Source: Acidobacteriota bacterium
GTDB taxonomy: Bacteria > Acidobacteriota > Vicinamibacteria > Vicinamibacterales > 2-12-FULL-66-21
Assembly (NCBI GenBank): GCA_003222675.1
Contig: QHWT01000077.1
Coordinates: 1-35,030, forward strand
Length of the DNA stretch: 35,030 bases
Reading direction: 5' to 3'
Part shown: one piece after another, positions 18,208-34,092 of the stretch
Layout of the letters: each line of letters opens with the position of its first letter
Position numbering within the stretch: the first letter of the stretch is position 1
Notes under the pieces: model-generated
The model's database searches: none
Seen by the model: only the letters and a program-made list of their open reading frames with translations
What the model was told of the DNA's origin: nothing
Program-made: the position numbers and the translations under genes

Positions 18208-18957
18208 TTATCGCTGCGCTTCACTTTTGCTGGCATGGAACACCGCTCGATCCTGCCGAAAGGCCAGCGGCAAACGATTCTTTCCTTTCAGGTGATGCCA
18301 TCCCGCGCGTCCCGCTCGATACAGCCAGCCAGGCAAGTTCGTGATCATCCGGATATCGTGAAATCCCACACTCTCCAGCATTCCTGCTACTGCCGCCGGA
18401 TTCGGGCCCCACCAATTGGTCGGGTCATTATTCAGTTCTCGTCCCGGATAGAAAGCAGCCGCGGGCCGCTCAAGGCCTACAAGATCAACGACTGTCTCCA
18501 GAATCAACGTGCCGCGAGTTACCGATGCCACTCGCTCGAGCGCTAACAGTGGATGCCGCAGGTGATAGAGCACGCCTAGAAACATGACCATGTCGAATGT
18601 GCCGAGACGCTCTGGAGACAGGTCCATGACATCGATGTCCAGATCCTCCACACGCGAGCCGAGCGCCTGCCGCGCCAACTCGAAACCTGCTTTGGAGCCC
18701 CAGCTCGGCCCATGCCAGGAGTAGTAATCTGTCGCGAGAACCCGGGCTGCGCCACGCCGCTCACACTCGAACGAGAAAAAACCGTCCCATGCGCCGACGT
18801 CCAGGACGGACAGGCCGCTGAGAGATGCCGGCATTCCCAATCGCGCAAGCCGCTGTGACGTATCGTCCACGCCCGCGGTGATCACTCCGCCACCCAAATC
18901 AATCGTGTGATACCACCGGTGAGCCGCGATTCGAGACCGAACGTCCTCCGACAACAT
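18208..18957 (-). CDS. Class I SAM-dependent methyltransferase, CmoB/DUF1698-like
   Basis: A 249-residue methyltransferase. The SAM-binding motif I is VLDVGAWDG (residues 51-59), preceded by WYHTIDLGGGVIT (15-27). This combination is typical of CmoB-like/DUF1698 proteins. FLGVLYHLRHP follows at motif IV, and NNDPTNWWGPN is a late family motif. Such genes are often annotated as tRNA mo5U34 methyltransferase, but this one is shorter than true CmoB (about 320 residues), so the substrate is uncertain. Start 18957 is preferred over 19005 because similarity begins there. It lies on the same strand 137 bases below malate synthase and may be read from the same transcript, but no functional link is evident. 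Confidence 0.8.
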   Translation of the reverse strand: MLSEDVRSRIAAHRWYHTIDLGGGVITAGVDDTSQRLARLGMPASLSGLSVLDVGAWDGFFSFECERRGAARVLATDYYSWHGPSWGSKAGFELARQALGSRVEDLDIDVMDLSPERLGTFDMVMFLGVLYHLRHPLLALERVASVTRGTLILETVVDLVGLERPAAAFYPGRELNNDPTNWWGPNPAAVAGMLESVGFHDIRMITNLPGWLYRAGRAGWHHLKGKNRLPLAFRQDRAVFHASKSEAQR

Positions 18958-19094
18958 CGCAACATTGTCGTCTGGAGCGAAAGTAAGAATCCACAATTCG
19001 TGCACGTTCGTCGGAGGACGTCAGCGTACGGAGCCGAGCGGGTTCTACAACGTTGTGGACGGTGCGGTGTTGCTGCGAAATTGAGGCGAGCACA

Positions 19095-20981
19095 TCAGGT
19101 TGCGGCAGGTGCAAAATCAAGATTCTCGGTGACTCTGGTGCCGTCCTTGCGAAACGCTTCGGTGAGCCGTCCGATGCGGCGCCTGGCTTCGGACAAATCG
19201 TGGTTGTCGAGATTGATGTTCAGCAGATCGATGTACCACGGCAGCTTGACGTCGCTCGTCACGTAGGTCTCGACGATCTCGCGCGCGATCGGCAGTGTGG
19301 TGTTCTTTGATACATCGTGGACATCGCGATTGCTGGCCGTTCGCAGCTTGGCGTACTCTTCGACCAGAAGCCGCAGGAAGAGCTCCCGCGTGAACCTGTC
19401 TCCCGTCATCACGCCAATCTGATCGTCCGCGGTAAAGCGGGCGCCTTTGTGCAGCCATTCCCAGAGAATGCTGAGGCGGATTTCGCCCGTGGCCATATCC
19501 TCCATCAAATAGAGGACGTCATCGTTGCCGAAAAAATCGGCAGGTTTGAGAGCGGCGGCCTGCAGACCCTGGCCGAACGCGTTGCCGTACTGCAGCGCAA
19601 CGCTCAGAAGATCGCGCGCGCCGCGAACGGTCCGCGGCGCGGCTTCGAGTTGAATCAGGCTGTCCGCGTCGGCCTGTGTATATGTAAGCGGAGGAAACGA
19701 TCGTCCGAGCTGATTCTCCTCCCCAATCTCCTCCCACACCGGCCGGACGATGTGGACCATTTTCCAGTGTGCGACCCATTTCCCGCTGGCGCCTTCACGC
19801 TGCTCGCGCTCGGCCCCGCTTTTCGCCCTCGTCATCCCGTTGGTCACCCCCGCGTCGGATCCAACAGGAATGTTGGGCTCCATGCCGCCCTGCCAGAGCG
19901 CGTACCGCCCGAGGCGATCGGGCGTGTTGACGGCCCGCCGCACGCGATCCTCGTAGGACCGCATGTAGCTGTACGTCATCACGATCGCGTCGATGTTCGG
20001 GTTGACGAACTCGCGATCCCAGGTCATCGCGTCGGAGACGCTGTTGATGTAATCCCATCGGCCGGTATTGAAACCAACGAAGCGAATCCCGAGCGCCGCG
20101 CGGATCTCCATCAGCTGGAAGCACGCTTCGATTTGCTCGACCAGCACATAGACCTTGATCGCGCCAACGAAGAGGCCGAGGTGCTGCTCGATTGCGGAAA
20201 GAATATCGTTCCAGAGAGCGGCCTCCTCCGCGGTCTGGATTTTCGGCAGATACAGCACCAGCGACGCGCCCGCGTCGCGAAGCTGGCGATGGTTGTTGAC
20301 GATGAACAGCGTCGTATCGACGATCGAGGCTGAAAAGCCGGCACCGGCATAGCGCACGTGACGATCGTCGAGGTGCAGGCCCCGCGCACGGAAGATCTTG
20401 GTCGTGAAATCGAGCTGCCGGGTCCAGTCGTCGATGATCGTCCGCCCGAAGAAACCCTGCGCCCAGCGGTTCATCTCAGCAGCGACCTGCTCCGCGACCT
20501 TCAGAAATATCCGATCGCGGCCAATCGCCAGCTTCAGGTTCCGCTGGTTGTCGAGCGACATCGTCGAAACCTGGCCGAGCGCGTCCTCGCCGTCGAACAT
20601 CCAGCCGTCAGCCCCGGAGAGGAGCGCATACGCAACGTTCCGGATGCTCGCCTCGGTGGCCGCATGCGGCTTGGCCGCGGGACCGGTCCCCTGAATCCAT
20701 TGGCGGCGCAAGTCCGCGGGAATGTCGCTCCCGACGAACTTGCCGTCTCGCGCATCCTGAACTTTGATCCGGGTGCGTGGAATGTACGCGTCCGGTGGCA
20801 GGAACGTGATCCGCTCATTGTTCCGTGCGCGCGCCGCGCGGCGCGCGATCCGGGCGGCCATGACCTCCTTGCGATCCGCGTTGAGGGGCGCCAATGCATC
20901 GAGCGCCGCGAGAACTTCCTTGGTGAAGACGTCTGGATAGGCGCCTTCGAGGTTCGCGCGGATCTCCAAGGTTCCCGGCAT
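19095..20981 (-). CDS. Malate synthase (A-type, long variant)
   Basis: A 628-residue enzyme condensing glyoxylate with acetyl-CoA to malate. Active-site residues can be placed: Arg200 (FRARGLHLDD), Mg ligands Glu282 (VLVEQIEA) and Asp310 (NTGRWDYI), and catalytic base Asp495 (YLMEDMATGEI). The Glu-to-Asp spacing of 28 equals that of E. coli malate synthase A (250 and 278). It is about 100 residues longer than ordinary A-type enzymes. Part of the extra length lies between Asp310 and Asp495 and part in an extended C-terminus. It is the last gene of the oxalate operon, 10 bases after the carrier, so its glyoxylate probably comes from oxalyl-CoA and not from isocitrate. No isocitrate lyase gene is in the window. 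Confidence 0.9.
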   Translation of the reverse strand: MPGTLEIRANLEGAYPDVFTKEVLAALDALAPLNADRKEVMAARIARRAARARNNERITFLPPDAYIPRTRIKVQDARDGKFVGSDIPADLRRQWIQGTGPAAKPHAATEASIRNVAYALLSGADGWMFDGEDALGQVSTMSLDNQRNLKLAIGRDRIFLKVAEQVAAEMNRWAQGFFGRTIIDDWTRQLDFTTKIFRARGLHLDDRHVRYAGAGFSASIVDTTLFIVNNHRQLRDAGASLVLYLPKIQTAEEAALWNDILSAIEQHLGLFVGAIKVYVLVEQIEACFQLMEIRAALGIRFVGFNTGRWDYINSVSDAMTWDREFVNPNIDAIVMTYSYMRSYEDRVRRAVNTPDRLGRYALWQGGMEPNIPVGSDAGVTNGMTRAKSGAEREQREGASGKWVAHWKMVHIVRPVWEEIGEENQLGRSFPPLTYTQADADSLIQLEAAPRTVRGARDLLSVALQYGNAFGQGLQAAALKPADFFGNDDVLYLMEDMATGEIRLSILWEWLHKGARFTADDQIGVMTGDRFTRELFLRLLVEEYAKLRTASNRDVHDVSKNTTLPIAREIVETYVTSDVKLPWYIDLLNINLDNHDLSEARRRIGRLTEAFRKDGTRVTENLDFAPAAT

Positions 20982-20991
20982 GCGCGCGCGC

Positions 20992-22227
20992 CTACTTGGC
21001 CACGACGGGCGCGCCGACCGCTACCCTCGCCACGTTCGCCATGTGCAATCCGGCCGCAAGCGCCGCAGCAACGAGCGCCATGATCGCGCTGCCGTAGAAT
21101 CCGACGGACCAGCTGCCGAACCGCTCGAACAGCAGCGCACCAAACCAGCCGCCTATGATCGACGCCGTGCCCTTTGCGGTGTACAACACGGCGTAGTTCT
21201 CTGTCGCCGAGCGCGTGCCGAAATAGTCGGCGGCTGTCGGCGGGAAGAGCGAGTAAATCTCACCCCACGTGAAGTAGACGAGCACCACCGTGAATGCGAA
21301 CCATCCGCCGGAGATCTGCCCAAGAACGAGGACGAGCACCAGCGATACGGCGTTGGCGACGAAGGCGATGATCATCGCGTATTCACGGCCGATGCTGTCG
21401 GACGCCCAACCCCAGAAGATTCGGCTCGCGGCATTCGCGAGTGGACTCAACGTCGCGGCCAGCGCAAGGGCCGACGCGCTGAACCCCCACGATTTCGAGA
21501 TCGGCCCTGCGTTCGCCGTGACCAGCAGGCCACCGGTCGCCATCATCACGAACATCGCGTACAGCACATAGAATCGCGGCGTTCTCAGCATCTCGAACGT
21601 GGTGAACTGCCGGCGGCGCACTTGCGATTCGCCACTCGCTGATGCTGTTGCGGGCGTCGCCGCTTCGGCTGGGGGATGCCGCAGAACCTGCGCAACGGCG
21701 ACGATGACCAGACCCTGGAAGATGCCCGTGGCGATGAAGGCGGTGCGATAGCCGTGCGCCTGAATCGCGGAGTTGATGAACGGGATGAAAAGCGCTGTGC
21801 CGCCGCCAAATCCGGCGGCCATGATTCCCGCCGCGAGCCCGCGATGTTCCGTGAACCACTTCAGCGCCGAACCGATGGACCCGCTGTACACGAAGGCCGC
21901 GCCCGCGCCCGCGGCGCAGTACAGGACATACAGCATTGGCAGCGTGGTCGCATATCCCATCCCCGCCCAGCCGAGGCCGCACAGCAGGCCGGCCGCGCGG
22001 ATGAAACCGCGCGGCCCGAGCCGGTCGATGAACCATCCGTCGAGAGGCTGCACCCACGTCTGACAGAGAACGAACAGCGTGAAGGCGAACTGGATGTCCG
22101 ACAGCTTCCAGTCGGTGCCGGCCTGGAGCGGCGCAACGAACAGCGTCCAGGCATACTGCAGGTTGGCGATCATGATCATCGTGATCACGGACGCCGCGAG
22201 CTGGAACCAGCGGTTGTGGATGTTCAC
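20992..22227 (-). CDS. OxlT-like MFS oxalate carrier
   Basis: A 411-residue, 12-helix major facilitator of the oxalate/formate antiporter family. The N-terminal motif NLQYAWTLFVAPLQ and the cytoplasmic loop DGWFIDRLGPRG are typical. The two charged residues that bind oxalate in Oxalobacter formigenes OxlT (Arg272 and Lys355) have matching candidates in Arg269 (SRIFWGWASD) and Lys352 (YTAKG). Both are three positions earlier, with the same spacing of 83. The gene starts with GTG and overlaps the reductase stop by four bases (GTGA), so they are translationally coupled. Since no decarboxylase is present to make formate, the counter-ion may differ from formate. Confidence 0.85.
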   Translation of the reverse strand: MNIHNRWFQLAASVITMIMIANLQYAWTLFVAPLQAGTDWKLSDIQFAFTLFVLCQTWVQPLDGWFIDRLGPRGFIRAAGLLCGLGWAGMGYATTLPMLYVLYCAAGAGAAFVYSGSIGSALKWFTEHRGLAAGIMAAGFGGGTALFIPFINSAIQAHGYRTAFIATGIFQGLVIVAVAQVLRHPPAEAATPATASASGESQVRRRQFTTFEMLRTPRFYVLYAMFVMMATGGLLVTANAGPISKSWGFSASALALAATLSPLANAASRIFWGWASDSIGREYAMIIAFVANAVSLVLVLVLGQISGGWFAFTVVLVYFTWGEIYSLFPPTAADYFGTRSATENYAVLYTAKGTASIIGGWFGALLFERFGSWSVGFYGSAIMALVAAALAAGLHMANVARVAVGAPVVAK

Positions 22228-23228
22228 TGGGCCACTCCCTGGACCCGCGGCACGGACCGCGCTTGCCTGTGTTCATCCAGGAACTTCGTGCAGGCGTACA
22301 CCGCACGCGTCACCGGCATCGGCACGTCCAACCGCTGACCGAGCTCCAGGACCGCTCCGACGACCGCCTCGATCTCCATCGGACGTCCGGCCTCGCAGTC
22401 CTGCAGCATGGACGTCTTGTGCGCGCCGATCTTTTCGGCCCCCGCCATCCGCTGGTCGATCGAGACGGGCAGGTCGATGGCCAATTTTGCGGCGACCGCT
22501 TCGGTCTCCTGCATCACATCGCGGACAACGCGCGAAACCTCCGGGTGTCGCGCCATTTCCTGCAGCGTGCCGCCCGTCAGTGCGCTGATCGGATTGAACG
22601 CCACGTTCCCGAGAAGTTTCACCCATATCTCCTGGCGGATGCGCGTCGTGATCGGGCATCGGAATCCAGCGGCAATGAGCGCCTCACCGATCCGGCGGCA
22701 TCGTTCGGATCGGCTGCCATCGGGCTCGCCCAGCGTGATGCGATTGCCGTCGGTGTGGTGGATGACGCCGGGTTCGACGATCTCGGTCGCGAAATAGGCG
22801 AGCGATCCGATGACGCGTCGGTGTTCGATCGCGGCGGCAATCACTCCGCCAGGATCGACACGATCGAGACGATATCCGTCGAGCTCTCCCCCGTGATCCT
22901 GGAAATACCACCACGGGATGCCGTTCTGTGTGCTGACGACGACGGTGTCGGGCCCGAACAGTGAGCGGAGGTGCGGAGCGAGGGCGGGCAGGCTATGCGC
23001 CTTCACACCGATGACGACCACGTCGAGCGTGCCCACTGTCGTGAGGTCGCCAGTCGCTTCGGGATGGACCTCGAAGTCCCCCTCGGGGCTGCGCACCCGG
23101 AGTCCGCGTTCGCGCATTGCCCGCAGATGTGGTCCACGGGCGAACAGCACGACATCGGCACCCGCGCGGGCAAGCCGCGCACCGATATAGCCGCCGATCG
23201 CTCCGGCGCCCGCGATGAGAATCTTCAC
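22224..23228 (-). CDS. PanE/ApbA-family reductase, probable oxalyl-CoA reductase
   Basis: A 334-residue enzyme of the ketopantoate reductase fold. The NADP-binding loop GAGAIGGYIG is at residues 7-16. Catalytic Lys204 (WVKLLGNVAFNP) and Glu285 (RPMEIE) correspond to Lys176 and Glu256 of E. coli PanE. A generic annotation would be 2-dehydropantoate 2-reductase. Placement between an oxalate-CoA ligase (7-base gap) and an OxlT-like carrier (4-base overlap), with malate synthase next, argues for reduction of oxalyl-CoA to glyoxylate, as shown for PanE2 of Methylobacterium extorquens AM1. The start is a GTG at 23228; a longer upstream frame is arginine-rich overlap with the ligase gene and is rejected. 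Confidence 0.85.
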   Translation of the reverse strand: MKILIAGAGAIGGYIGARLARAGADVVLFARGPHLRAMRERGLRVRSPEGDFEVHPEATGDLTTVGTLDVVVIGVKAHSLPALAPHLRSLFGPDTVVVSTQNGIPWWYFQDHGGELDGYRLDRVDPGGVIAAAIEHRRVIGSLAYFATEIVEPGVIHHTDGNRITLGEPDGSRSERCRRIGEALIAAGFRCPITTRIRQEIWVKLLGNVAFNPISALTGGTLQEMARHPEVSRVVRDVMQETEAVAAKLAIDLPVSIDQRMAGAEKIGAHKTSMLQDCEAGRPMEIEAVVGAVLELGQRLDVPMPVTRAVYACTKFLDEHRQARSVPRVQGVAQ

Positions 23229-23235
23229 GACGTTT

Positions 23236-24768
23236 TCAATGTTCCTTGTGCGCGTACGCCTCGGCGACGAGGCGGCGCTGAATCTTGCCGGTCGCCGTCC
23301 GCGGAATCGTCTCGGTGATGTGGATCTGTTTCGGGCGCTTGTAATCGGCGAGGCGCTCCCGGCAGTACGACAGAAGATCTCCTTCGGTGGCCTTGTCGCG
23401 CAGCACGACGGCTGCCGCGACCTCTTCGCCCCACGTTGGATGCGGCACGCCAAAGCAGACCGCTTCCGCAATGGCCGGATGCGCAAGCAGGACCTCGTCC
23501 ACTTCGCGTGGCGAGATCTTCTCCCCTCCGCGGTTGATGAGCTCCTTGATTCTGCCGACGAGCGTCAGGTAGCTGTCCGCATCGAGATAGCCCTGATCTC
23601 CGGTGTGGAACCACCCGTCGGTGAAGGACGCGGCGTTCGCCTCGGGATTGTTCTCGTAACCTCCAATCACGTTGGGTCCGCGAATCACGACCTCGCCGTG
23701 TTCGCCGATACCCAGATGCCGGCCGTTTGCATCCATGATGCTGATCTCGACGTGGGTGCCGCGGCCGACCGATCCAGGTTTGCGCTCTTCCGGCGGCAGC
23801 GGATTCGAGGCCATTTGATGCGCGGCTTCCGTCATGCCGTAGGCCTCGAGCACGGGCGCGCCGAACGCGGCTTCGAGTTCGTGCATCACCTGGGGCGCGA
23901 GCGACGCGCTGCACGATCGGATGAAGCGAAGGCGTTCGGTCCCCGGGGGCTTGCCTGGCATCGAAGCCGCGCGCGCGAGCAGTAACTGGTGGAGCGTCGG
24001 GACGGCCGAATACCATGTGACGCCGTAGTCGCGGGCAACGCGCCAGAAGGACAACGGGTTGAACTTCGCGGGAACGACAACGGTCCCGCCGGTCGCGAGT
24101 GTGGCCAGTGTCGACGCGACCAGTCCGTGCACGTGGAACAACGGCATCACGCACAGCGACACATCGTCAGCAGTCAGCGCGTAGCTCCGGGCGACGTTGC
24201 GGGCTGAAATCGACAGGTTCTTGTGCGCGAGCGGGACGCGCTTCGGACGTCCGGTGCTACCGCTGGTGTGCAGCACGAGCGCCACGTCATCAACTGACGG
24301 AAGATCGATTGCTCGTCTGTCCGTAACGCCGGAGAGACTCACCTCGCCCGCATTGCTCATCGCGACGGCAATCACGCGGACGCGATCGCCGGCCGCGCGG
24401 CGCGCCGCGTCGGCTCGATCAGCCGCCCCATCAGGCGGCAGCAACAGGATTCGGGCGTTCGTGTCGTCGAGGTAGAAGAGGAATTCATCCTCTTTGTATG
24501 CGGGGTTGAGCGGAGCCGCCGTCCCCGCCATTGCCGCGGCGAGCAACGACACGATAGCTGGAAGACCGTTTGGCAGCGCCATCCCGACGCGGTCGCCTCG
24601 ACGAATGCCGCACGCGCTCAGCGCTTCGGCAACCGCTTCAACCTGCAGCTGCAGCTGCCCGTAGCTGATCCGAATGCTCTGCTCCGGCAGAACAATCGCG
24701 GTGTGACTGGCGGGGACAGACTCGAACAAGCCCGGAAGCGTGGAACCTGTCGTCGGCAGCGGAGTCAT
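23236..24768 (-). CDS. Oxalate-CoA ligase (AAE3/Pcs60-like adenylate-forming enzyme)
   Basis: A 510-residue ANL-superfamily enzyme. The ATP-binding loop HTSGSTGRPK is at residues 167-176, the adenylation motif YGMTEAAHQM is around Glu314, GWFHTGDQGY and GRIKELINRGGEKISP are in the hinge region, and the C-terminal lysine motif is TATGKIQRR. The combined signatures FIRSCSASLAP, APVLEAYGMTEA and SNPLPPEERKPGSVG closely match plant AAE3 and yeast Pcs60, which are oxalyl-CoA synthetases, more than generic fatty-acid ligases. It would make oxalyl-CoA from oxalate, CoA and ATP. It is the first gene of the operon, 90 bases after the end of the DUF5916 gene. Substrate assignment rests on remembered homologues and on the operon. 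Confidence 0.88.
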   Translation of the reverse strand: MTPLPTTGSTLPGLFESVPASHTAIVLPEQSIRISYGQLQLQVEAVAEALSACGIRRGDRVGMALPNGLPAIVSLLAAAMAGTAAPLNPAYKEDEFLFYLDDTNARILLLPPDGAADRADAARRAAGDRVRVIAVAMSNAGEVSLSGVTDRRAIDLPSVDDVALVLHTSGSTGRPKRVPLAHKNLSISARNVARSYALTADDVSLCVMPLFHVHGLVASTLATLATGGTVVVPAKFNPLSFWRVARDYGVTWYSAVPTLHQLLLARAASMPGKPPGTERLRFIRSCSASLAPQVMHELEAAFGAPVLEAYGMTEAAHQMASNPLPPEERKPGSVGRGTHVEISIMDANGRHLGIGEHGEVVIRGPNVIGGYENNPEANAASFTDGWFHTGDQGYLDADSYLTLVGRIKELINRGGEKISPREVDEVLLAHPAIAEAVCFGVPHPTWGEEVAAAVVLRDKATEGDLLSYCRERLADYKRPKQIHITETIPRTATGKIQRRLVAEAYAHKEH

Positions 24769-24822
24769 GACGGTGATCTCATCGAACGCGAGCGAAGCGG
24801 CCAGAAGCGGATTCTAACCTTA

Positions 24823-24844
24823 AAGCCGGCGTTGGAAACGGCTT
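24823..24844 (-). terminator. Possible terminator after the DUF5916 gene
   Basis: A 6-bp inverted repeat, AAGCCG (24823-24828) / CGGCTT (24839-24844), lies just after the DUF5916 stop and is followed on the minus strand by TAAGGTT. The T run is poor. If it works, the oxalate operon must have its own promoter in the remaining roughly 55 bases. Confidence 0.3.
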
Positions 24845-24858
24845 CGTGGAGCACGACC

Positions 24859-27126
24859 TCAACGCTGGAACGCGTAGGATAACTTGATGAAGAACTGCCG
24901 GTCCGAGGGCGCGAGATGATTCGGGTCGGTCAATTCCCGGGCGTCGCCATAGCCGACGAACATCACGGACTGCCAATTCACCTTGTAGGACAGCAACACC
25001 GAGGAGGTGAACTCCCCCGATCGCGCGGTCGTGTCAAACGTGTAGAGTGAAGGATTCCGATCGGTGGAGACGTACTGCGCGATCCCGCGGACGAAGAGGC
25101 GCGACGTGAACGTATACGTTGCGCGGACGCGAGACACGCGCGCGGTGAACAGGCGTCGCCCCCTGCCAATCGCGGTGTCGACGTTCAGCCAGCGGAGATT
25201 CCGCAGCAGCGCGAGCTCCAGGTGCTGGGTGGGATTGAGTCGCGCGTTCAGATTGATCGTCGCGCCGTGACCGCGCCGCACGTTGTCGAAGTCAATTTCC
25301 TCCCCGGTGAGGCCGTCGAGGCCGATCTGAGACAGCCACCGGGTCGGGCTGAACTGCGCGACATAGCCGATTCGCTTTCGACCGATTACGACATCGCCGG
25401 CGCGGGCCTGTTCGTCCTGATAGCGGAACTGCAGAAATCCGTCCCGTGGCGTATCGAGGCCGAACCCCGGCGTCACGTTACGGGATATCAGACCGCCGCT
25501 GCGATCGTACTGGTAGTCGACGTTCAAAAATGTGCGCTGCCGAGAGACAAATCCCTTCGGCCGCACGGTCCATCCTCCTCCGCCAAGGCCTTGTCGATAC
25601 CCGACCTGTGGCACGAAGCCGCTGTCCGCACGGAAGCCGGCACCGATGTCCTGGTAAAACCCGAACCAATCCGCGTGCTTCGAATTGTGCTCCCAGCGCA
25701 CGTGCGCGGCGTGGCCGCGCAGGTGCTGTCCGGTCCATTCAGCGGCGAGATCAGGACGAGTGGGCGTTCGGCTGGAGCTATACAGCCATTGTCCCGTGAT
25801 CGCGTTGCTGCCGTTTGGACGCCACTGAAAGTCCGGACCGATGACGCGATTGTTCCCCTCTGACCCGCTGTTCGCCGAGTCCTTGCTCTCGTGCCCCTCG
25901 CGGTCTGTCGCGAGCATCCCGATGAACGAGAGGCCGATATCCCGCTTGAGCCGCACGACCAGGTCCGTGGATCCGAATTCCTGCGTGGCCAGATTGGAGC
26001 CGTTGGGGCCGGGAATAATCACGCTGCCGCCACCCGCATCCTCCGCGACGAGCACCGTGTAGCGCACACCGGCGGTCTTGCCCGTCATGCGACCGCCCCA
26101 GTCCGGGTCGGTGATCGTCCGCGTGTAGACCGCTTGGATCGGCGTTTGAAAGAGATCCGCCCCCTCGAGAAAGAACGGACGCTTCTCGGGAAAGAACAAC
26201 GCGAAGCGCTCGTTCGCGGAGATCTGCGCCGTGTCGGACTCGACCTGAGAGAAATCCGGATTGATCGTGAAATCGATCGCGTTGTCGGCGTTCGGCGTGT
26301 ACTTGACGTCGAGACCGGCATGCGGCTTCACCGGATCGGACACGAGCGGTGATCCACTCTCGTTTCGTGGGTGCGCCCCTTCACTCGCGCTCACGTATGG
26401 CGCGGCGACGAGATGGCCGCCACTCGGCAGGTGCTCGAGGCCGGTCAACGAATTCGATCGGCAGATGAAACAGTTGCTGCCGCGCGGGAACTTTGCGGAA
26501 AAGAACTGAAAGTGCCGATCGCGGGGATAGTTCCTGTACAGCAGGATCCCCCATGTCTGTGGGTTCCTGTTCTGATAGCGCAGCGACGAGAACGGAATGC
26601 GGATCTCGAGCGTCCAGCCGCGCTCGTTGATTCGCGTCGCCGAATCCCAGAAGAAGTCCGGTGCCGAATCTTCGCCGGACGCATCGTCAAGCACAGAGTC
26701 GTACTGAACATTCCGGGGGGTGGCGACGAAGAGGGTTGCGGTGCGTCCACTGTTCCGGCTGTCCAGAAGGATGCCGCCGTAGTCGTTGTAACCGTTGCCG
26801 ATGTTGTCGCGGTCGGCGAATGGCGCCTTGATCGCAGAGGGGTTGGGATCCTCGAATTCAAAGGCCGCGTAAAGGAATCGATCGTCGTAGGTCAGATAGC
26901 CGACGTTCTTCACCTTGGGCTCGGTGTTGTCACCGGGTTGTGTTTCGTACCACTTGTCGATCTTCGTGGCGTTGCGCCAGCCTTCGTCCCCGAGGTCGCC
27001 GTCGATCGTAATTTTCCCGGCGCTCCGCGCAATGGCAATCGGCTCGCCGGAAAGGGCGGACTGCGCGCCAGCCGGTGCGGCCGCGCCGGCAAACGTCAGC
27101 GTCGCGAACAGAACAGCACAGCGCAT
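24859..27126 (-). CDS. Outer-membrane DUF5916 protein with CBM9-like N-terminal domain
   Basis: A 755-residue exported protein with a signal peptide (residues 1-22, ending AGAQS). A CBM9-like beta-sandwich domain at about 30-215 begins KITIDGDLGDEGW. The DUF5916 region follows, containing INPDFSQVESD and FPEKRPFFLEGADLF, the hallmark of the family. The remainder is rich in alternating strands and ends FFIKLSYAFQR, a typical beta-barrel terminus. Relatives in Bacteroidetes and Acidobacteria are predicted outer-membrane proteins of unknown substrate. Start 27126 has a strong GGGAGGGGAG site. It is divergent from the next gene with only 50 bases between starts, so their promoters overlap. Confidence 0.88.
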   Translation of the reverse strand: MRCAVLFATLTFAGAAAPAGAQSALSGEPIAIARSAGKITIDGDLGDEGWRNATKIDKWYETQPGDNTEPKVKNVGYLTYDDRFLYAAFEFEDPNPSAIKAPFADRDNIGNGYNDYGGILLDSRNSGRTATLFVATPRNVQYDSVLDDASGEDSAPDFFWDSATRINERGWTLEIRIPFSSLRYQNRNPQTWGILLYRNYPRDRHFQFFSAKFPRGSNCFICRSNSLTGLEHLPSGGHLVAAPYVSASEGAHPRNESGSPLVSDPVKPHAGLDVKYTPNADNAIDFTINPDFSQVESDTAQISANERFALFFPEKRPFFLEGADLFQTPIQAVYTRTITDPDWGGRMTGKTAGVRYTVLVAEDAGGGSVIIPGPNGSNLATQEFGSTDLVVRLKRDIGLSFIGMLATDREGHESKDSANSGSEGNNRVIGPDFQWRPNGSNAITGQWLYSSSRTPTRPDLAAEWTGQHLRGHAAHVRWEHNSKHADWFGFYQDIGAGFRADSGFVPQVGYRQGLGGGGWTVRPKGFVSRQRTFLNVDYQYDRSGGLISRNVTPGFGLDTPRDGFLQFRYQDEQARAGDVVIGRKRIGYVAQFSPTRWLSQIGLDGLTGEEIDFDNVRRGHGATINLNARLNPTQHLELALLRNLRWLNVDTAIGRGRRLFTARVSRVRATYTFTSRLFVRGIAQYVSTDRNPSLYTFDTTARSGEFTSSVLLSYKVNWQSVMFVGYGDARELTDPNHLAPSDRQFFIKLSYAFQR

Positions 27127-27176
27127 GTTAACGCTCCCCTCCCGGGTCCGTCCTTTCCTCGAGGTAAGGAGGATCC

Positions 27177-27833
27177 ATGATCGCACGCGTTCGATTCGTC
27201 CTCACGACTGCGCTTCTCGCATCCATCGCACTCGCGCGCCCCGCGCTCGCGGGCCCGCCGCTGCTCTGCCACCCGTTCGATATCGGCACGGCGGCGTCGC
27301 TTCCATGGAGCGGCACCACTTCCTGGTTCGACGGCAAAACGGACTACAAGGTCGCTAACCTCGTCGCGGATACCGAAGCACTTCTGGCACCGTCAACCCC
27401 CGTGATCGTCCGCATGGAGACCCTGCGACGCGCATCGATCTATGCGAGCCGAGACCCAAAGATCGCGTTTGCGCTGGTCGAGCGGCTGACGGCCAGAGCG
27501 CAAGCGTCGAAGGCCACGGGTCGACCGGATGCGCTTGCGCTCCTCGATGCCGCGTACGCGACCGAGGCGCTGCGCCAGATCACGACGATCGGTGGCATCC
27601 CGGGCTTCAAGGATCAGGTCGACGGCGTGAAAGACGTCATCAGTAACGCGGATGGCTGGCAATACATGAAGGCCAGCCTCGCGGCCCGACCGGACGATCC
27701 GGCGCTCGAGTTTGCCGCGGCGCTGATCGCGGCCGACAAGGATCGCGCGGCATACACGGGTCATGCACAGAGGGCGCGCGCCGGCGCCGCAAAGGACGCG
27801 CTGCTCGCGCGCAATCTGTCGCACATCTCTTGA
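27177..27833 (+). CDS. Secreted protein of unknown function
   Basis: A 218-residue protein with a clear signal peptide (residues 1-25, ARPALAG) and a following LLCHPFDIG containing the only cysteine. The rest is alpha-helical and repetitive in character (for example IAFALVERLTARAQ and ALALLDAAYATEALRQ), suggesting tetratricopeptide-like helices, though no repeat consensus is clear. A near-perfect AAGGAGG site precedes the ATG. It is divergent from the DUF5916 outer-membrane protein and may share its regulation. I do not recognise a characterised family. Confidence 0.75.
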   Translation: MIARVRFVLTTALLASIALARPALAGPPLLCHPFDIGTAASLPWSGTTSWFDGKTDYKVANLVADTEALLAPSTPVIVRMETLRRASIYASRDPKIAFALVERLTARAQASKATGRPDALALLDAAYATEALRQITTIGGIPGFKDQVDGVKDVISNADGWQYMKASLAARPDDPALEFAAALIAADKDRAAYTGHAQRARAGAAKDALLARNLSHIS

Positions 27834-28105: not shown

Positions 28106-28211
28106 ACCATACAAGCCTATTGACTCCAAGACGTTGGAGACGTAGCCTCCCAAGCGCGGTACGCGTAATGCTGTCAGCAGACCGCGTGTCTTAAACGGGA
28201 GGGGGATGGAT

Positions 28212-31200
28212 ATGAGTCAGTTCGTCCGAGGGGCGACGCGCGCCATGATGGCGTGCGCCACTCTGCTGGTGTTGGCTGCGCCAGCGGCAGCGCAGTTCGA
28301 TCGGGGCCAGATCTCCGGTCGCGTCAAGGATGCCCAGGGGGGCGTGGTGCCGGGCGCCACCGTCACCGCCACCAATAACCAGACGCAGATTGCGTCGACG
28401 ACCGTCAGCGACGGTACGGGGTTTTATACGTTCCCCAATCTGCCGGCCGGCCGCTACACCGTGGCGACCGAACTGCAGGGATTCAAGAAAGCGCTTCGCA
28501 ACGACGTCCAGCTCGACGCCGCCGGATCCCTGACGATCGACTTCGCGCTCGAGACCGGGTCGCTGACCGAAGCGGTCACCGTCACGGCTGAAGCGCCGCG
28601 TCTCCAGAGCGACGTCGCGCTGCGCAAGACCATCGAATCGAAAGACATCGAACAACTGTCGTTCTCCGGCCGCAACCCGATCGGCGTGGTCGGGCTGAAG
28701 CCGGGCGTCACGGGCGGCAGCTTCAACAATTACGGGTTCTCCGACCTGGGCAACGGCGGCTTCAGCATCAACGGCAGCCGCAGCGACGAGAACAACATCA
28801 CGGTCGACGGCGCCACGGCGATCCGCACGCGGTCGTCGGGCGCGATCGTCGGCATCCAGAACGTCGACGCGATCCAGGAAGTACAGGTGCTCACGGGCGA
28901 CTACATGCCGGAGTACGGCCGCGCCAGCGGCGGGCAGATCCGCATGGTCACCAAGAGCGGCGGCAATCGCTTCAGCGGCAGCGCCTCGTTCTTCTACCGC
29001 GACGAGAAACTGCAGGCCAACACCTGGACGCGCAATCACAGCGCGAACCTCAGCGACCGCTCGCCGGCGCCGTTCAACTACAAGCAGTACGGCTACTCGC
29101 TGGGCGGCCCGATTCTGAAAGACAAGCTGTTCTTCTTCGGCGCGCAGGAATGGGTCAACTTCCTGCAGGTGCAGACCAACACCGCAACCGTCCCGACGGC
29201 AAAGATGCGGGCCGGTGATTTCAGCGAGCTGCTGGTTCCGAACAACGGTTTCTTCAACACCGCGCAGATCATCAAGGACCCGCTCACGGGCCAGCCGTTC
29301 CCCGGCAACGTGATTCCGGTGAACCGTCTCAGCGCGAATGGCCTCGCGCTGCTCGCGGCCTATCCGCTGCCGACGGCGGGGTTCCAGCAGGGCACGTTGA
29401 ACGCGATCATCAACAGCGAGAATCCGCAGGATCAGCGCAAGGACAACATCCGCTTCGATTACCGGATGAACGCGCAGAACAACTTCAGCTTCCGCTACGG
29501 CAAGTACAGCTGGACTGCCGTCGACGCGTTCCGCGGCACGTTCCCGTTCGCCCGCACCGACTGGAATCGGCCGAACACGACCGAGACGGCGAGCTGGACG
29601 AGTACATTCAGGAACAACCTGGTGAACGAGGCGACTTACACCTACGGCCTCGACGAAGTGTTCATCAACGTGTTCCAGAGCGATCTCTACAAGCGGAGCC
29701 GGTACGGCATCACCTATCCGTATATCTTCCCCGACTTCAAGGAGATCCCGGACAAGATCCCGACGATCAGCATCGACAATCTCACCGAGATCGACGGCGG
29801 CCCGTATCCATCCTCATCGCGTGGCCCGATCCACACGTTCGCGGACACGGCGACATGGGTGAAGAACCGGCATACGTTCAAGGGCGGGGTCGTGATGGAG
29901 TATTCGGGAGAGGACGACTTCGATCAGATCAACGTCCAGCCTATCCCGGGCAGCACGAACAACCAGAACGGCCGCTTTCAGTTCACCAACGGCATGACCG
30001 GCGGGACCGGCCTCGGCATGGCCAACACGGCACTCGGCCTCTTCACCAACTACGCGGAGATCGGTCAGCGTGCGCTGACCAAGTGGCGCGCGCTCGCGAC
30101 CGACATCTTCGTCCAGGATTCGTGGAAGCCGGCGAGCAACCTGACCATCGAAGGCGGCGTGCGCTACGTGCTGTGGCCGCCATGGTATTCACTGACGAAC
30201 AACATCGCCACGTTCGATCCCGCGCACTACAACGCTGCGAACCAGGCGGTGATCAATCCGGTGAACGGACAGATCGTCAGCGGCCCGCGCTACAACGGCA
30301 TCGTCCTGCCCGGCAATGGGTTCCCGTCCTCGGCGAGCGACCTTGCGGTGTTCAACGATCCCGCGGTGAACGCGCTGTTCGTCGGCGCGCCGCGCGGCCT
30401 CACCGAGACCCACAAGAACGTGTTCGAGCCGCGCATCGGCGCGTCGTACGCGTGGAACGAGAAGACGCTCCTGAAGGTCAGCACCGGTGTGTTCCACAAC
30501 CGCGTGACGCTCAACGACTCGCTGCTGCTCGGCGGCAACCCGCCATTCCAGCCGCAGGTCAGCGTCAGCAACGGGCTGGTCGATAATCCCGGCGGCGCCG
30601 GCGGCGCGGCGGCGCTCCCGCTCGGCATGACGGCGATCGATCCGGTGTTCAACCACCCGACCGCCTACATGTGGTCCGCGGGCGTGCAGCGCGAACTGCC
30701 ATTTGGATTCACGCTCGATGCCGCGTACGTTGGACGCCGCGGCGTGTACTTGCAGCGGGAACGCAACATCAACCAGCTCGCGGCGGGCACGGTCCAGGCG
30801 AATCCGAACGTGAACGTCGCGGCGCTGCGGCCCTTCAAGGGCTACGGCGTCATCCGGCTGTCGGAGAATGCGGGCACCTCGAAGTACAACGCGCTGCAGC
30901 TCGGCCTCGATCGCCGATATCGCAACGGCTTCAAGTTCGGCGCCGCCTACACGCTGAGCAAGTCCGAGGACAACGCGAGCAACAAGCGCGACGTGCTGTT
31001 CAACAGCTTCGACGACACCGGCTTCTTTGGTCCGGCGAGCTTCGATCGCCGTCACGTGTTCAACTTCTATTACATCTACGACCGCGCTTGGCGGCTGGCA
31101 GATCTCGGGCGCGACCTTCATGCGCACGGGCACCCCCCTGTGGGTGACGCGTGGTGACGACGTGGCCGGGGTCGGTGATACGTTCGGCCAGCCGTGGAAT

Positions 31201-31678: not shown

Positions 31679-33403
31679 ATGCAAATCATCCGCAGTCGCA
31701 AAACCTATGACGTCTGCGTCATCGGCTCCGGCGCCGGCGGCGGCATGGCTGCCAAGGTCCTGACCGAGGCGGGCGCCGATGTCGTCATGCTCGAAGCGGG
31801 CGTGTACTGGGATCCCGTGAAGGACTCGAAGATGCTCGCGTGGTCCTACGAGACGCCGCGACGCGGCGCCGACATCCCCGAGCGGCAATTCGGGGAGTTC
31901 GACGCGGGCCTCGGCGGGTGGACGCTCGAAGGAGAGCCGTACACGACTGCGCCCGGCGAGGAGTTCGACTGGTACCGGACGCGCATGCTCGGCGGACGCA
32001 CGAACCACTGGGGACGCATCTCGCTGCGCTTCGGGCCGTACGACTTCCGGCGGAAGAGCATCGACGGCCTCGGCGATGATTGGCCGATCACCTACGACGA
32101 CATGAAGCCGTACTACGACAAGCTCGATCGGCTCGTCGGAATCTTCGGCACGATCGAGAACCTGCCGAACGAGCCGGACGGCATCTTCCTTCCGCCTCCG
32201 GCGCCGCGCTGCTACGAGCTGCTGATCAAGCAGGCGTCAGAGAAGCTGAACATCCCCGTGATTCCGTCGCGCCTCTCAATCATCACGCAGCCCCACAACG
32301 GGCGCCAGCAGTGTCACTACTGCGGCCAGTGCGGGCGCGGCTGCGCGGTCCATTCGAATTTTTCATCGCCGTCGGTCCTGATTCCCCCTGCCATGCAGAC
32401 GGGCCGCCTGACGATCGTCTACAACGCGATGGCGCGCGCGGTGACCGTCGACGCGAACGGGCTCGCTGACGGCGTCGCGTACGTGGACAAGACGACGAAC
32501 CGCGACAACCACGTGAAGGCGCGCGTCGTCGTCGTCGCGGCAAGCGCGTGCGAGTCAGCGCGCATTCTTCTCAATTCGAAGTCGTCGAAGTTCCCTCAAG
32601 GCATCGCGAACTCGAGCGGCACCGTCGGCAAGTACCTGACGGATTCGACCGGCACCAGCGTTTCCGGCTTCATCCCGCGCATGATGGAACAGGTCCCGCA
32701 CAACGAGGACGGCGTCGGCGGGATGCACCTCTACATGCCGTGGTGGCTGGATAACAAGAAGCTGGATTTCCCGCGCGGATATCACATCGAGATCGGCGGC
32801 GGACGCCGCATGCCGAGCTACGGATTCATCGGCGGCATCCACAACTACACCGGCATCGAGCAGGAAGGCAGCAAACCGATTACATTCGGCGGCTACGGCA
32901 AACAGTTGAAGAACGATTACCGCCGTCTCTACGGCGCGACGGTCGGCTTCGCCGGGCGCGGTGAGATGGTCCCGAACGAGAACTGCTACTGCGAGATCGA
33001 CCCGCGCGTCGTCGATCGCTGGGGGATTCCCGTGCTCCGGTTCCACTGGAAGTGGAGCGACTACGAATACAAGCAGTCGAAGCACATGCAGGAGACCTTC
33101 CGCGCGATCATCCAGGAGATGGGGGGCACGCCGATGTCTCCCATGCCCACCGCGGAGACCGGCTATGGCCTCGCGACGGGCGGACGGATCATCCACGAAA
33201 TCGGCTGTACGCGCATGGGGAGCGACCCGTCGACGTCGGTGCTGAACAGCAACTGCCAGGCGCACGACGTCAAGAACCTGTTCGTGGCCGACGGCGGCCC
33301 GTTCGTGTCCAACGCGGACAAGAACTGCACGTGGTCGATTCTCGCGCTGTCCATGCGGACCAGCGAGTTCATCGCGGACGAGCGGCAAAAGGGGAGCCTG
33401 TGA
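31679..33403 (+). CDS. GMC-family FAD oxidoreductase (sugar/alcohol dehydrogenase large subunit)
   Basis: A 574-residue flavoenzyme. The FAD-binding loop GSGAGG is at residues 16-21 and Glu39 follows (MLEAG). LGGRTNHWGRISLR is the flavin-attachment region. The C-terminal catalytic pair is His506 (HEIGCTRMG) and Asn549 (KNCTW). A cysteine cluster, CHYCGQCGRGC (Cys212, 215, 218, 222), may hold an iron-sulfur cluster, as in the 3Fe-4S-bearing FAD-glucose dehydrogenases; this is an inference. It lacks a signal peptide. The GTGA overlap with the next gene, a gluconate-dehydrogenase subunit 3, indicates a complex of the gluconate/glucose dehydrogenase type exported with its partner. No Shine-Dalgarno precedes the ATG, which sits against a repeat array. 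Confidence 0.9.
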   Translation: MQIIRSRKTYDVCVIGSGAGGGMAAKVLTEAGADVVMLEAGVYWDPVKDSKMLAWSYETPRRGADIPERQFGEFDAGLGGWTLEGEPYTTAPGEEFDWYRTRMLGGRTNHWGRISLRFGPYDFRRKSIDGLGDDWPITYDDMKPYYDKLDRLVGIFGTIENLPNEPDGIFLPPPAPRCYELLIKQASEKLNIPVIPSRLSIITQPHNGRQQCHYCGQCGRGCAVHSNFSSPSVLIPPAMQTGRLTIVYNAMARAVTVDANGLADGVAYVDKTTNRDNHVKARVVVVAASACESARILLNSKSSKFPQGIANSSGTVGKYLTDSTGTSVSGFIPRMMEQVPHNEDGVGGMHLYMPWWLDNKKLDFPRGYHIEIGGGRRMPSYGFIGGIHNYTGIEQEGSKPITFGGYGKQLKNDYRRLYGATVGFAGRGEMVPNENCYCEIDPRVVDRWGIPVLRFHWKWSDYEYKQSKHMQETFRAIIQEMGGTPMSPMPTAETGYGLATGGRIIHEIGCTRMGSDPSTSVLNSNCQAHDVKNLFVADGGPFVSNADKNCTWSILALSMRTSEFIADERQKGSL

Positions 33404-34092
33404 CGACCATCAAGCGAGGCGCCGGAGGGGACCGCCGCAAGGGGACCTCAACGCGATCAGCGTTGGGGCCTGAGGCGGCGCCGAGCGCCAAAATGAAGCG
33501 GCGGACGGTCCTGCAGATGATGGCAGCCGCGCCGATGGCCGCGGCCATGACGTGGACCGAGGCGGAAGCCGCGCAGGCGCACGAGCACGCGCAGGCCGCG
33601 CGCGCCACGGCCGCGAAGACCAACGTCTACAAGCCCAGGTTCTTCAACACGCACGAGTGGGCGACGGTGGTCATGCTCGTCGACATCATCATCCCGAAAG
33701 ACGAGCGCTCCGGCAGCGCCACCGATGCGGGCGTCCCGGAGTTCATGGACTTCATCGTCAACGATCAGCCGCTCCGGCAGAACGCGATGCGCGGCGGCCT
33801 CGCATGGCTCGATTTGGAGTGCCAGCAGCGCTACGACAAGATGTTCGTGGATTGCACCGACGAGGAGCGCACGCGCGTGCTCGACGACATCGCATGGCCG
33901 CAGAAGGCGACGCCCGAGATCTCGCACGGCGTAGCGTTCTTCAACAGCTTCCGCGATCTGACAGCGACGGGCTTCTGGACGACGAAGATGGGGATGCAGG
34001 ATCTGCGGTACATGGGCAACACGTTCGTGCCCGTGTGGAAGGGCTGCCCCGACGAGGCGCTCCAGAGACTGGGCGTGAAGCGCAACGCCTGA
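33400..34092 (+). CDS. Gluconate 2-dehydrogenase subunit 3 family protein with probable Tat signal
   Basis: A 230-residue small subunit. Residues from about 70 onward (FFNTHEWATVVMLVDIIIPK, then DAGVPEFMDFIV) are typical of the gluconate 2-dehydrogenase subunit 3 family, which pairs with GMC flavoproteins. A signal segment beginning KRRTVLQMM (residues 33-41) has the twin arginines of a Tat substrate. It would carry the folded, FAD-loaded partner across the membrane, as known for related dehydrogenases. The GTG start overlaps the GMC stop (GTGA) with AAAAGGGGAG ahead of it; an alternative ATG at 33493 would start right at the signal. The cytochrome c subunit usual in such complexes is not in the window. 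Confidence 0.85.
   Translation: MTTIKRGAGGDRRKGTSTRSALGPEAAPSAKMKRRTVLQMMAAAPMAAAMTWTEAEAAQAHEHAQAARATAAKTNVYKPRFFNTHEWATVVMLVDIIIPKDERSGSATDAGVPEFMDFIVNDQPLRQNAMRGGLAWLDLECQQRYDKMFVDCTDEERTRVLDDIAWPQKATPEISHGVAFFNSFRDLTATGFWTTKMGMQDLRYMGNTFVPVWKGCPDEALQRLGVKRNA

Follow-up and report, generated by a model that had tools for sequence, protein, structure and literature searches.

How can oxalate be used by a bacterium in whose genome the genes of the formyl-CoA route are not found, and where would its carbon go? This question is raised by a locus on contig QHWT01000077.1 of an Acidobacteriota bacterium (Vicinamibacterales; assembly GCA_003222675.1), of which positions 1 to 35,030 were analysed; this whole stretch of 35,030 nucleotides is termed "the window" below. 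Four consecutive genes on its reverse strand encode an AAE3/Pcs60-type ligase (LIG), a PanE-family reductase (PAN), an OxlT-like carrier of the major facilitator superfamily (MFS) and a malate synthase-like protein (MS), and together they probably constitute an operon for the use of oxalate through glyoxylate. In the proposed pathway, MFS would bring oxalate into the cell, LIG would convert it into oxalyl-CoA at the expense of ATP, which is split to AMP, PAN would reduce oxalyl-CoA to glyoxylate with NAD(P)H, and MS would join glyoxylate and acetyl-CoA to form malate. We infer the substrates, the direction of the reductase reaction and the co-transcription of the genes, and the pathway reading appears well supported by genomic context.

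The four genes and their predicted reactions

A first-pass annotation of this DNA had described four same-strand genes with gaps of 7, -4 and 10 bases and had assigned them to a ligase, a PanE-family protein, an OxlT-like carrier and a malate synthase. The spacing matches the open reading frame coordinates exactly (LIG-PAN 7 bases, PAN-MFS a 4-base overlap, MFS-MS 10 bases), and family checks uphold all four assignments. The genes share a strand, follow each other with gaps of less than about 50 bases and show conserved association, as is taken to mark a single operon (Table 1).

The best solved relatives of LIG are the oxalate-CoA ligases 5ie0 (470 bits, with a match over residues 10-508, i.e., the full length), 6qjz (464 bits) and 8aff (414 bits), which we take to originate from Arabidopsis, grass pea and yeast, respectively. 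The first match for another acid, a malonyl-CoA synthetase, reaches 236 bits, about half the score of the oxalate-CoA ligases. Moreover, Mycobacterium sherrisii harbours a LIG relative (42% identical; the match in the genome search contains one TGA), which is separated by about 330 bases from a divergently oriented gene with 59% identity to Escherichia coli Oxc. Both the closest solved relatives and the genomic tie to oxalyl-CoA enzymes point to membership in the AAE3/Pcs60 family, and the proposed connection of LIG with oxalate is borne out by the best PDB matches and by the relative adjoining oxc.

PAN exceeds the cut-off of the curated model NF005089 (435 versus 223 bits) and also matches PF02558 and PF08546. 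In a tree of 113 rows, built with a quick method and with very long outgroup branches, PAN falls together with relatives linked to LIG, frc or gcl, while E. coli PanE and a second PanE-family protein of the same genome (contig C136) stand outside; rows from Cupriavidus and Azospirillum are placed among the LIG-linked ones. A role in oxalyl-CoA metabolism is established for members of this family. According to PMC7486775, ApbA2 of Cupriavidus necator was found by its similarity to PanE2 of Methylobacterium extorquens, is encoded close to frc-oxc and is tied to oxalyl-CoA reduction by a growth phenotype, and the same oxalyl-CoA role is cited there for PanE2.

MFS scores above the curated oxalate/formate antiporter model TIGR04259 (403 versus 335 bits), and its best solved relative is OxlT, with 39% identity over 389 columns. 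The OxlT residues Q34, Y35, T38, Y124, A147, N268, R272, W324, Y328 and K355 are kept, and the changes comprise Y150F and W352Y, which retain an aromatic side chain, as well as Q63V. The first shell of the oxalate site in OxlT is formed by Gln34, Tyr35, Tyr124, Arg272 and Lys355 (PMC10070484); all five are conserved in MFS.

MS matches the malate synthase TIM barrel PF01274 with 153 bits, and compared to E. coli AceB it retains the motifs RGLHL, VE, GRWDY and MED, including the Arg, the Glu and the two Asp residues, which we take to be catalytic. Judged from its sequence, MS is a divergent malate synthase and not a canonical AceB.

Table 1. Coordinates of the predicted operon, a promoter-like match and the flanking genes in the window
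Feature	Position	Strand	Description	Domains or motif
LIG	23236..24768	-	AAE3/Pcs60-type AMP-forming oxalate-CoA ligase (predicted), 510 amino acids, ATG start, first gene	PF00501+PF13193
PAN	22224..23228	-	PanE/ApbA-family reductase, 334 amino acids, GTG start, predicted oxalyl-CoA reductase (glyoxylate forming)	
MFS	20992..22227	-	OxlT-type oxalate carrier (OFA family; predicted), 411 amino acids, GTG start	
MS	19095..20981	-	long-form malate synthase A-like protein, 628 amino acids, ATG start	PF01274
Sigma-70-like promoter match, weak	24811..24838	-	9/12, 42 bases upstream of the LIG start codon	TTTCCA-16-TAGAAT
Upstream gene	24859-27186		ends 90 bases before LIG	DUF5916
Downstream gene	18208-19005		methyltransferase-like; begins 89 bases beyond MS	

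The ligase-reductase pair in other genomes

LIG relatives (E-value of 1e-90 or better) are present in 40 of 396 genomes of the phylum. Sixteen genomes carry a LIG relative with an identity of at least 59%; one of these copies is truncated by the end of its contig, and a fragmentary 59% match in genome G354 was not counted. PAN relatives (1e-50 or better) occur in 44 of the 149 genomes of the order, 19 with at least 58% and 25 with 45-51% identity. Neighbourhoods were compared in 120 loci with LIG or PAN. They comprise 80 PAN loci from named genomes (the top 80 of 580 confirmed), a further 40 that were fetched, plasmid loci and the window itself, after removal of the duplicates L168, L174, L177, L178 and L190; further hidden duplicates are possible, and many loci derive from metagenome bins, which can be mixed. 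Genes in the fetched loci were predicted by a codon-score caller.

LIG and PAN are found on the same strand within 6 kb in 75 of the 120 loci, and within 400 bases in 63. The remaining loci have the two genes on opposite strands (one locus, L221), only LIG (nine) or only PAN (35). The pairing in the window is thus more than chance, because the two genes are adjacent in dozens of other genomes. The arrangement, first described as that of an apparent acidobacterium, is not confined to such organisms: the 75 loci with the LIG-PAN core span six phyla, namely Acidobacteriota, Chloroflexota, Dormiibacterota, Cyanobacteriota, Pseudomonadota and, with one metagenome bin, the actinobacteria. Methyloversatilis and Nostoc are among the cultured bacteria with both genes.

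PAN relatives lacking a neighbouring LIG are also informative. The stretches of the 35 PAN-only loci include frc in seven cases and gcl in four; Cupriavidus metallidurans has PAN with frc, and two Azospirillum plasmids carry it with gcl and an OxlT-like gene. OxlT-like carriers are encoded near the PAN relatives of both C. metallidurans and Azospirillum. These neighbourhoods fit a predicted oxalyl-CoA reductase, as would be expected, and the link of PAN to oxalyl-CoA that had been proposed initially stands, since its relatives lie beside LIG or, where LIG is missing, sometimes with frc, gcl and OxlT genes. One of the plasmids, from Azospirillum ramasamyi (L249), combines oxlT, a PanE homologue, NAD(P) transhydrogenase genes and gcl with genes for uric acid and allantoin.

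Several further gene families accompany the LIG-PAN core. An OxlT-like MFS gene is located nearby in 23 of the 75 loci, and an oxalate oxidoreductase-like alpha subunit in eight. Genes for oxalate oxidoreductase-like 2-oxoacid:acceptor oxidoreductases adjoin LIG-PAN in L130 (2406-5902), L132, L150 and L162; the best solved relative of the L130 alpha subunit is the oxalate oxidoreductase 5c4i, and the protein remains below the NCBIfam cut-off. Class-V aminotransferases of two kinds are found in 11 and two of the 75 loci, respectively. Their best NCBIfam models are 2-aminoethylphosphonate and aspartate-glyoxylate aminotransferase, both scoring below the cut-off, and the best solved relative of the second kind is a serine-glyoxylate aminotransferase.

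In ten of the 75 loci a gamma-glutamyltransferase (GGT)-family gene is present (e.g., L151:7049-8680; also L149, L153, L135 and L134). Its assignment as an oxamate hydrolase is unsupported, as the best solved relative is 2nlz, and 5hft, an oxamate hydrolase, ranks lower. Finally, a stand-alone 269-amino acid MhpD/DmpH-like protein of the FAH superfamily is encoded after MFS in many LIG-PAN loci, and 14 of the 75 have an MhpD-like kind in all. In L131 (9365-11200, plus strand) and L133 (5667-7493, minus strand) PanE is C-terminally fused to such a domain. The protein might be a putative decarboxylase that closes a malate cycle; a relative with 39% identity is encoded on contig C59 of the window's genome.

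Malate synthases, glyoxylate supply and alternative readings

A malate synthase gene is present on the fetched stretch (mean 14.3 kb) in 14 of the 75 LIG-PAN loci, or in 13 of 74 without the window. If a genome of 4.5 Mb is assumed to hold two malate synthase genes, a 16 kb stretch would include one by chance in 0.7% of loci, a background that is generous and assumed rather than measured. At this rate, the chance of 13 in 74 is about 1e-14, and it is about 2e-4 if only five loci are counted as independent (5/74). The association of malate synthase with LIG-PAN, noticed initially in the window, hence extends to 13 further loci. The gene is placed upstream of LIG on the same strand in ten of the 14 loci, downstream in three (the window, L149 and L193) and on the other strand in one (L162). 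A Chloroflexota contig of 3.7 kb (L212) carries PAN, an MhpD-like gene and a malate synthase gene without reaching LIG.

The operon-linked malate synthases are, by their sequences, not one lineage. The long form occurs in the window and L149, a form of about 690 amino acids in L124, L126, L154, L157 and L162, and canonical forms in L151/L153/L156, in L193 and in L212; L167/L186 have a further kind, and another is found in a Dehalococcoidia bin (L191). In a tree of 45 rows the operon label requires seven changes (gains or losses), at least three of them enforced by well-supported branches; several branches are long and exact placement is uncertain. The tree includes 15 long-form loci that lack the operon; L014-L042 were left out because later loci repeat them and L105/L107 because they are partial, and the malate synthase of L157 was truncated at the point where its frame enters LIG. 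Instead of repeated joining, an old link of malate synthase with many subsequent losses may account for this pattern. The family of about 690 amino acids (L154:3459-5531, L124, L126, L157 and L162) is approximately 26-30% identical to the window's MS and has partly changed motifs (RARG to RVPG, MED to MND), and the Arg, Glu and Asp columns are kept in the three rows shown. This family and the L167/L186 kind were met through LIG/PAN searches only, and no search for free copies was made.

The four-gene order, whose recurrence the first-pass annotation had proposed to survey, does recur at the level of function: L193, from a distant acidobacterium, has LIG, PAN, MFS and malate synthase arranged as in the window, with two 4-base overlaps followed by a gap of 5 or 20 bases. 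Its malate synthase is canonical (821 bits at a cut-off of 594.5) and not orthologous to the window's MS, and the exact set with the long MS was seen in the window only.

Relatives of the window's MS with 71-79% identity, termed long MS here, are found in 44 other genomes among 297 of the phylum (one match being partial). The remaining matches in the phylum are canonical malate synthases with 29-38% identity, and genomes G230 and G244 carry both kinds. In the 43 long-MS loci that were fetched (the stretches range from 4 to 18 kb, and contig ends limit some of them), an isocitrate lyase-family gene directly follows the long MS in 13. The example in L046 (2670-4940, minus strand) encodes an isocitrate lyase of 756 amino acids above the TIGR01346 cut-off; the isocitrate lyase-family proteins in this and the 12 other loci mostly comprise about 755 amino acids where whole, and several of the genes show a 4-base overlap. 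In one acidobacterial genus, the long MS is located near genes for an LctP-family permease and a glycerate kinase, and L064 and L070 have an additional GlcD-like gene nearby (484 of 568 bits on the GlcD model, below the cut-off); model-based identification of these neighbours covers the L070 genes only. The window's MS therefore belongs to a lineage of malate synthases involved in the use of glyoxylate.

Only the window and, in a looser arrangement, genome G469 have the long MS beside oxalate genes. In the latter (L149), the order is LIG, PAN, MFS, an MhpD-like gene, a gene for a 395-amino acid amidohydrolase-like protein, a GGT-like gene on the other strand and then an MS 79% identical to that of the window. 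That MS is a conserved fourth operon member by descent was considered as well, and is rejected because the 43 other long-MS stretches (4 to 18 kb) show no LIG (at least 40% identity), PAN or MFS.

The genome from which the window derives comprises 7.16 Mb at 99.9% completeness and 3.91% contamination. Its only PF01274 match is the window's MS. No oxc or frc gene exceeds the curated cut-offs in this genome, the best matches reaching 196 of 739 bits (oxc) and 191 of 504 bits (frc); in an assembly of such completeness, this agrees with the initial remark that genes of the formyl-CoA route are not here. Further matches to the oxc model on contigs C6, C115 and C9 score 118, 99 and 89 bits. An oxc-like and frc-like gene pair on C140 was considered as a hidden Frc-Oxc system and rejected: both score higher on other models, and below those cut-offs too. 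For the C140 and C6 candidates, models for acetolactate synthase or succinate-glutarate CoA-transferase outscore oxc/frc, and their cut-offs are likewise missed. The genome also has no gcl gene over the curated cut-off; a gcl-like match on C152 was discarded as a glyoxylate carboligase, since it scores 706 bits on the acetolactate synthase model, above the cut-off of 538. A search of the genome for the oxalate oxidoreductase-like alpha subunit gave no match, and was run without a known positive, so that this result is uninformative.

An isocitrate lyase gene, which the first-pass annotation had suggested looking for, is present on contig C22, and therefore the genome has a second source of glyoxylate. 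The gene (L097) adjoins a regulator-like gene, and there is no malate synthase at this site. The same regulator family, malate synthase and isocitrate lyase stand in a row in six of the 14 canonical-MS loci compared (L090, L091, L093, L094, L095 and L100). Because C22 has the regulator and isocitrate lyase without a malate synthase, the window's lineage appears to have lost the malate synthase of its ace locus and to rely on that of the operon.

These constraints bear on the physiological role of the pathway. When oxalate is oxidized to two CO2, no more than one NADH is gained, and the reaction of an AMP-forming ligase consumes two ATP equivalents. The energy gain would accordingly be near nil, because oxalate holds two electrons and its activation costs two ATP equivalents. 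By itself, the operon would provide no net carbon from oxalate, since MS consumes one acetyl-CoA per glyoxylate; where malate is burned back to acetyl-CoA, two carbons are lost as CO2 per oxalate. To call the assimilation "self-contained", as had been done initially, is thus too strong, as malate synthase needs acetyl-CoA from another C2 source. For oxalate to support growth on its own, gcl or a serine-type route would be required, of which the former is not found over its cut-off and the latter was not searched for. Most likely, oxalate is co-metabolized as the glyoxylate half of malate and tops up C4 acids, with acetyl-CoA provided by other carbon; the low energy yield of oxalate and the acetyl-CoA requirement of MS make this role likely. 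The oxalate-derived supply of glyoxylate would then run parallel to isocitrate lyase. Alternatively, oxalate is completely oxidized through a malate cycle. Uptake would not be driven by classical oxalate/formate exchange, because the four genes make no formate.

Several findings weigh against the oxalate pathway as outlined above. MS remains below the curated malate synthase A model TIGR01344 (239 versus 594.5 bits). The best NCBIfam model of LIG is FadD7, a model named for fatty acids (484 of 650 bits, below the cut-off), and an oxalate model is absent among its 25 best NCBIfam matches. In nine loci LIG (43-58% identical) occurs without PAN, PAN is present in only two of the 12 genomes listed for the organism's own taxonomic family, and the tested oxalate and glyoxylate genes are absent in 21 of the 35 PAN-only stretches (11 of them from Streptomyces), several of which are short contigs. 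No malate synthase was seen on the fetched stretch in 61 of the 75 LIG-PAN loci, and LIG (at least 40% identity), PAN and MFS were found near the long MS in none of the 43 other fetched loci. In one alternative reading, LIG, PAN and MFS form an oxalate-to-glyoxylate operon and MS is merely the genome's single glyoxylate-shunt malate synthase, the partner of isocitrate lyase, which came to lie downstream by chance. In keeping with this explanation, the 13 loci mentioned have an isocitrate lyase-family gene immediately after the long MS and no LIG beside it, and the C22 isocitrate lyase lacks an adjacent malate synthase and lies beside the regulator-like gene that flanks such pairs in six other genomes. 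We nevertheless consider a chance position unlikely, given the gap of 10 bases to MFS on the same strand, the malate synthases of several other lineages that adjoin LIG-PAN in 12 further loci, upstream as well as downstream, the same type in L149 and the identical gene order in L193; moreover, the single malate synthase quite possibly takes part in both routes.

Changes of substrate are frequent among acyl-CoA ligases and PanE homologues, and LIG's top NCBIfam model is that of a fatty acid-CoA ligase. The substrate of the ligase and the reductase might thus derive from a different short acid, or be ketopantoate in the case of the reductase, and the operon would then not concern oxalate at all. 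This appears quite improbable in view of the top solved relatives of LIG, which are oxalate-CoA ligases with about twice the score of the next acid, the LIG relative adjoining oxc, the presence of frc (7/35) and gcl (4/35) on the stretches of PAN relatives without LIG, the first-shell oxalate-binding residues retained in MFS and the second PanE encoded on C136. Should the route run in reverse, glyoxylate from isocitrate lyase would be oxidized to oxalyl-CoA and oxalate be exported. A PanE-family CoA-acylating glyoxylate dehydrogenase is taken to operate in this direction in C. necator on glycolate (PMC7486775), and PMC2752808 describes an oxalate-producing variant cycle in Pseudomonas fluorescens. 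Yet, an AMP-forming ligase is by general biochemistry poorly suited to release oxalate, MS would compete for glyoxylate, and the carrier is of the oxalate uptake kind, which together render the reverse direction highly improbable. For the preferred reading, the use of oxalate through glyoxylate, a wider formulation can be given, for and against which we see the balance as even: LIG-PAN would be a widespread and fixed oxalate-to-glyoxylate core that is independent of frc/oxc, occurs in six phyla and has exchangeable outlets, to which malate synthases of several lineages were joined repeatedly, divergent kinds of about 690 and 510 amino acids among them. In the window's organism, one malate synthase would then serve oxalate as well as isocitrate, and oxalate could replace isocitrate lyase in a C4-forming bypass.

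The genes surrounding the operon, DUF5916 upstream and methyltransferase-like downstream, judging by their families lie outside the pathway, and relatives of the DUF5916 gene are absent among the neighbour genes of the compared loci. Sigma-70-like matches number three in the region at an expectation of 1.3 from shuffles, and therefore the promoter match is not evidence by itself. Elsewhere in the window, a gene for a TonB-type outer membrane protein (28206-31157) precedes a GMC oxidoreductase gene (31679-33403), which is followed by a gluconate 2-dehydrogenase subunit 3-like gene (33493-34092).

Relation to known oxalate systems

There is precedent for each step of the proposed pathway, including the conversion between oxalyl-CoA and glyoxylate by a PanE homologue. 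Among the papers listed in literature searches, none combines a ligase, a PanE reductase and malate synthase in a single operon for oxalate, judging by titles and the beginnings of abstracts; the listings covered part of the matches and few subscription journals, and such an account may exist in print. At least one wide-ranging survey of microbes that use oxalate relies on counts of frc, oxc, oxdC and oxlT (PMC10192776). Such marker genes would overlook organisms in which a ligase and a PanE-type reductase take over this task, among them soil Acidobacteriota, Chloroflexota and Nostoc-type cyanobacteria. The route would retain the two carbons of oxalate inside the cell in the form of glyoxylate rather than lose them immediately as CO2 and formate, and thereby alter the carbon balance of oxalate turnover; the link to malate synthase predicts that label from oxalate appears in malate. 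What makes the operon more interesting is the wide occurrence of LIG-PAN, together with the fact that malate synthases from several lineages recur beside it.

The closest known systems are the PanE2/ApbA2 pathways of oxalate assimilation in M. extorquens AM1 and C. necator H16, where a PanE-family enzyme likewise interconverts oxalyl-CoA and glyoxylate. In these organisms, oxalyl-CoA is derived from frc, oxc operates alongside, and glyoxylate enters the serine cycle or the glycerate pathway (for C. necator, PMC7486775). In contrast to both, the window's operon would employ an ATP-dependent ligase in place of frc and malate synthase as the outlet. With the oxalyl-CoA synthetase AAE3/Pcs60 of plants and yeast, the operon shares the ligase family and the predicted first step; plant oxalyl-CoA, however, proceeds to oxalyl-CoA decarboxylase (PMC8004701), whereas that of the operon would be reduced.

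An OxlT-type carrier and oxalyl-CoA as an intermediate are common to the operon and to Frc-Oxc-OxlT degradation, as found in Oxalobacter and with the E. coli yfd genes. The genome studied here differs in having neither frc nor oxc over the cut-offs, and the operon would make no formate. Finally, the malate cycle and glycolate operons (C. necator AceB; glc-type clusters) resemble the operon in that their malate synthase consumes glyoxylate that does not originate from the glyoxylate shunt, but the glyoxylate of the operon would stem from oxalate rather than from glycolate. Set against these systems as a whole, the operon differs by the predicted ATP-dependent ligase instead of frc, the absence of oxc and the malate synthase outlet in the same operon.

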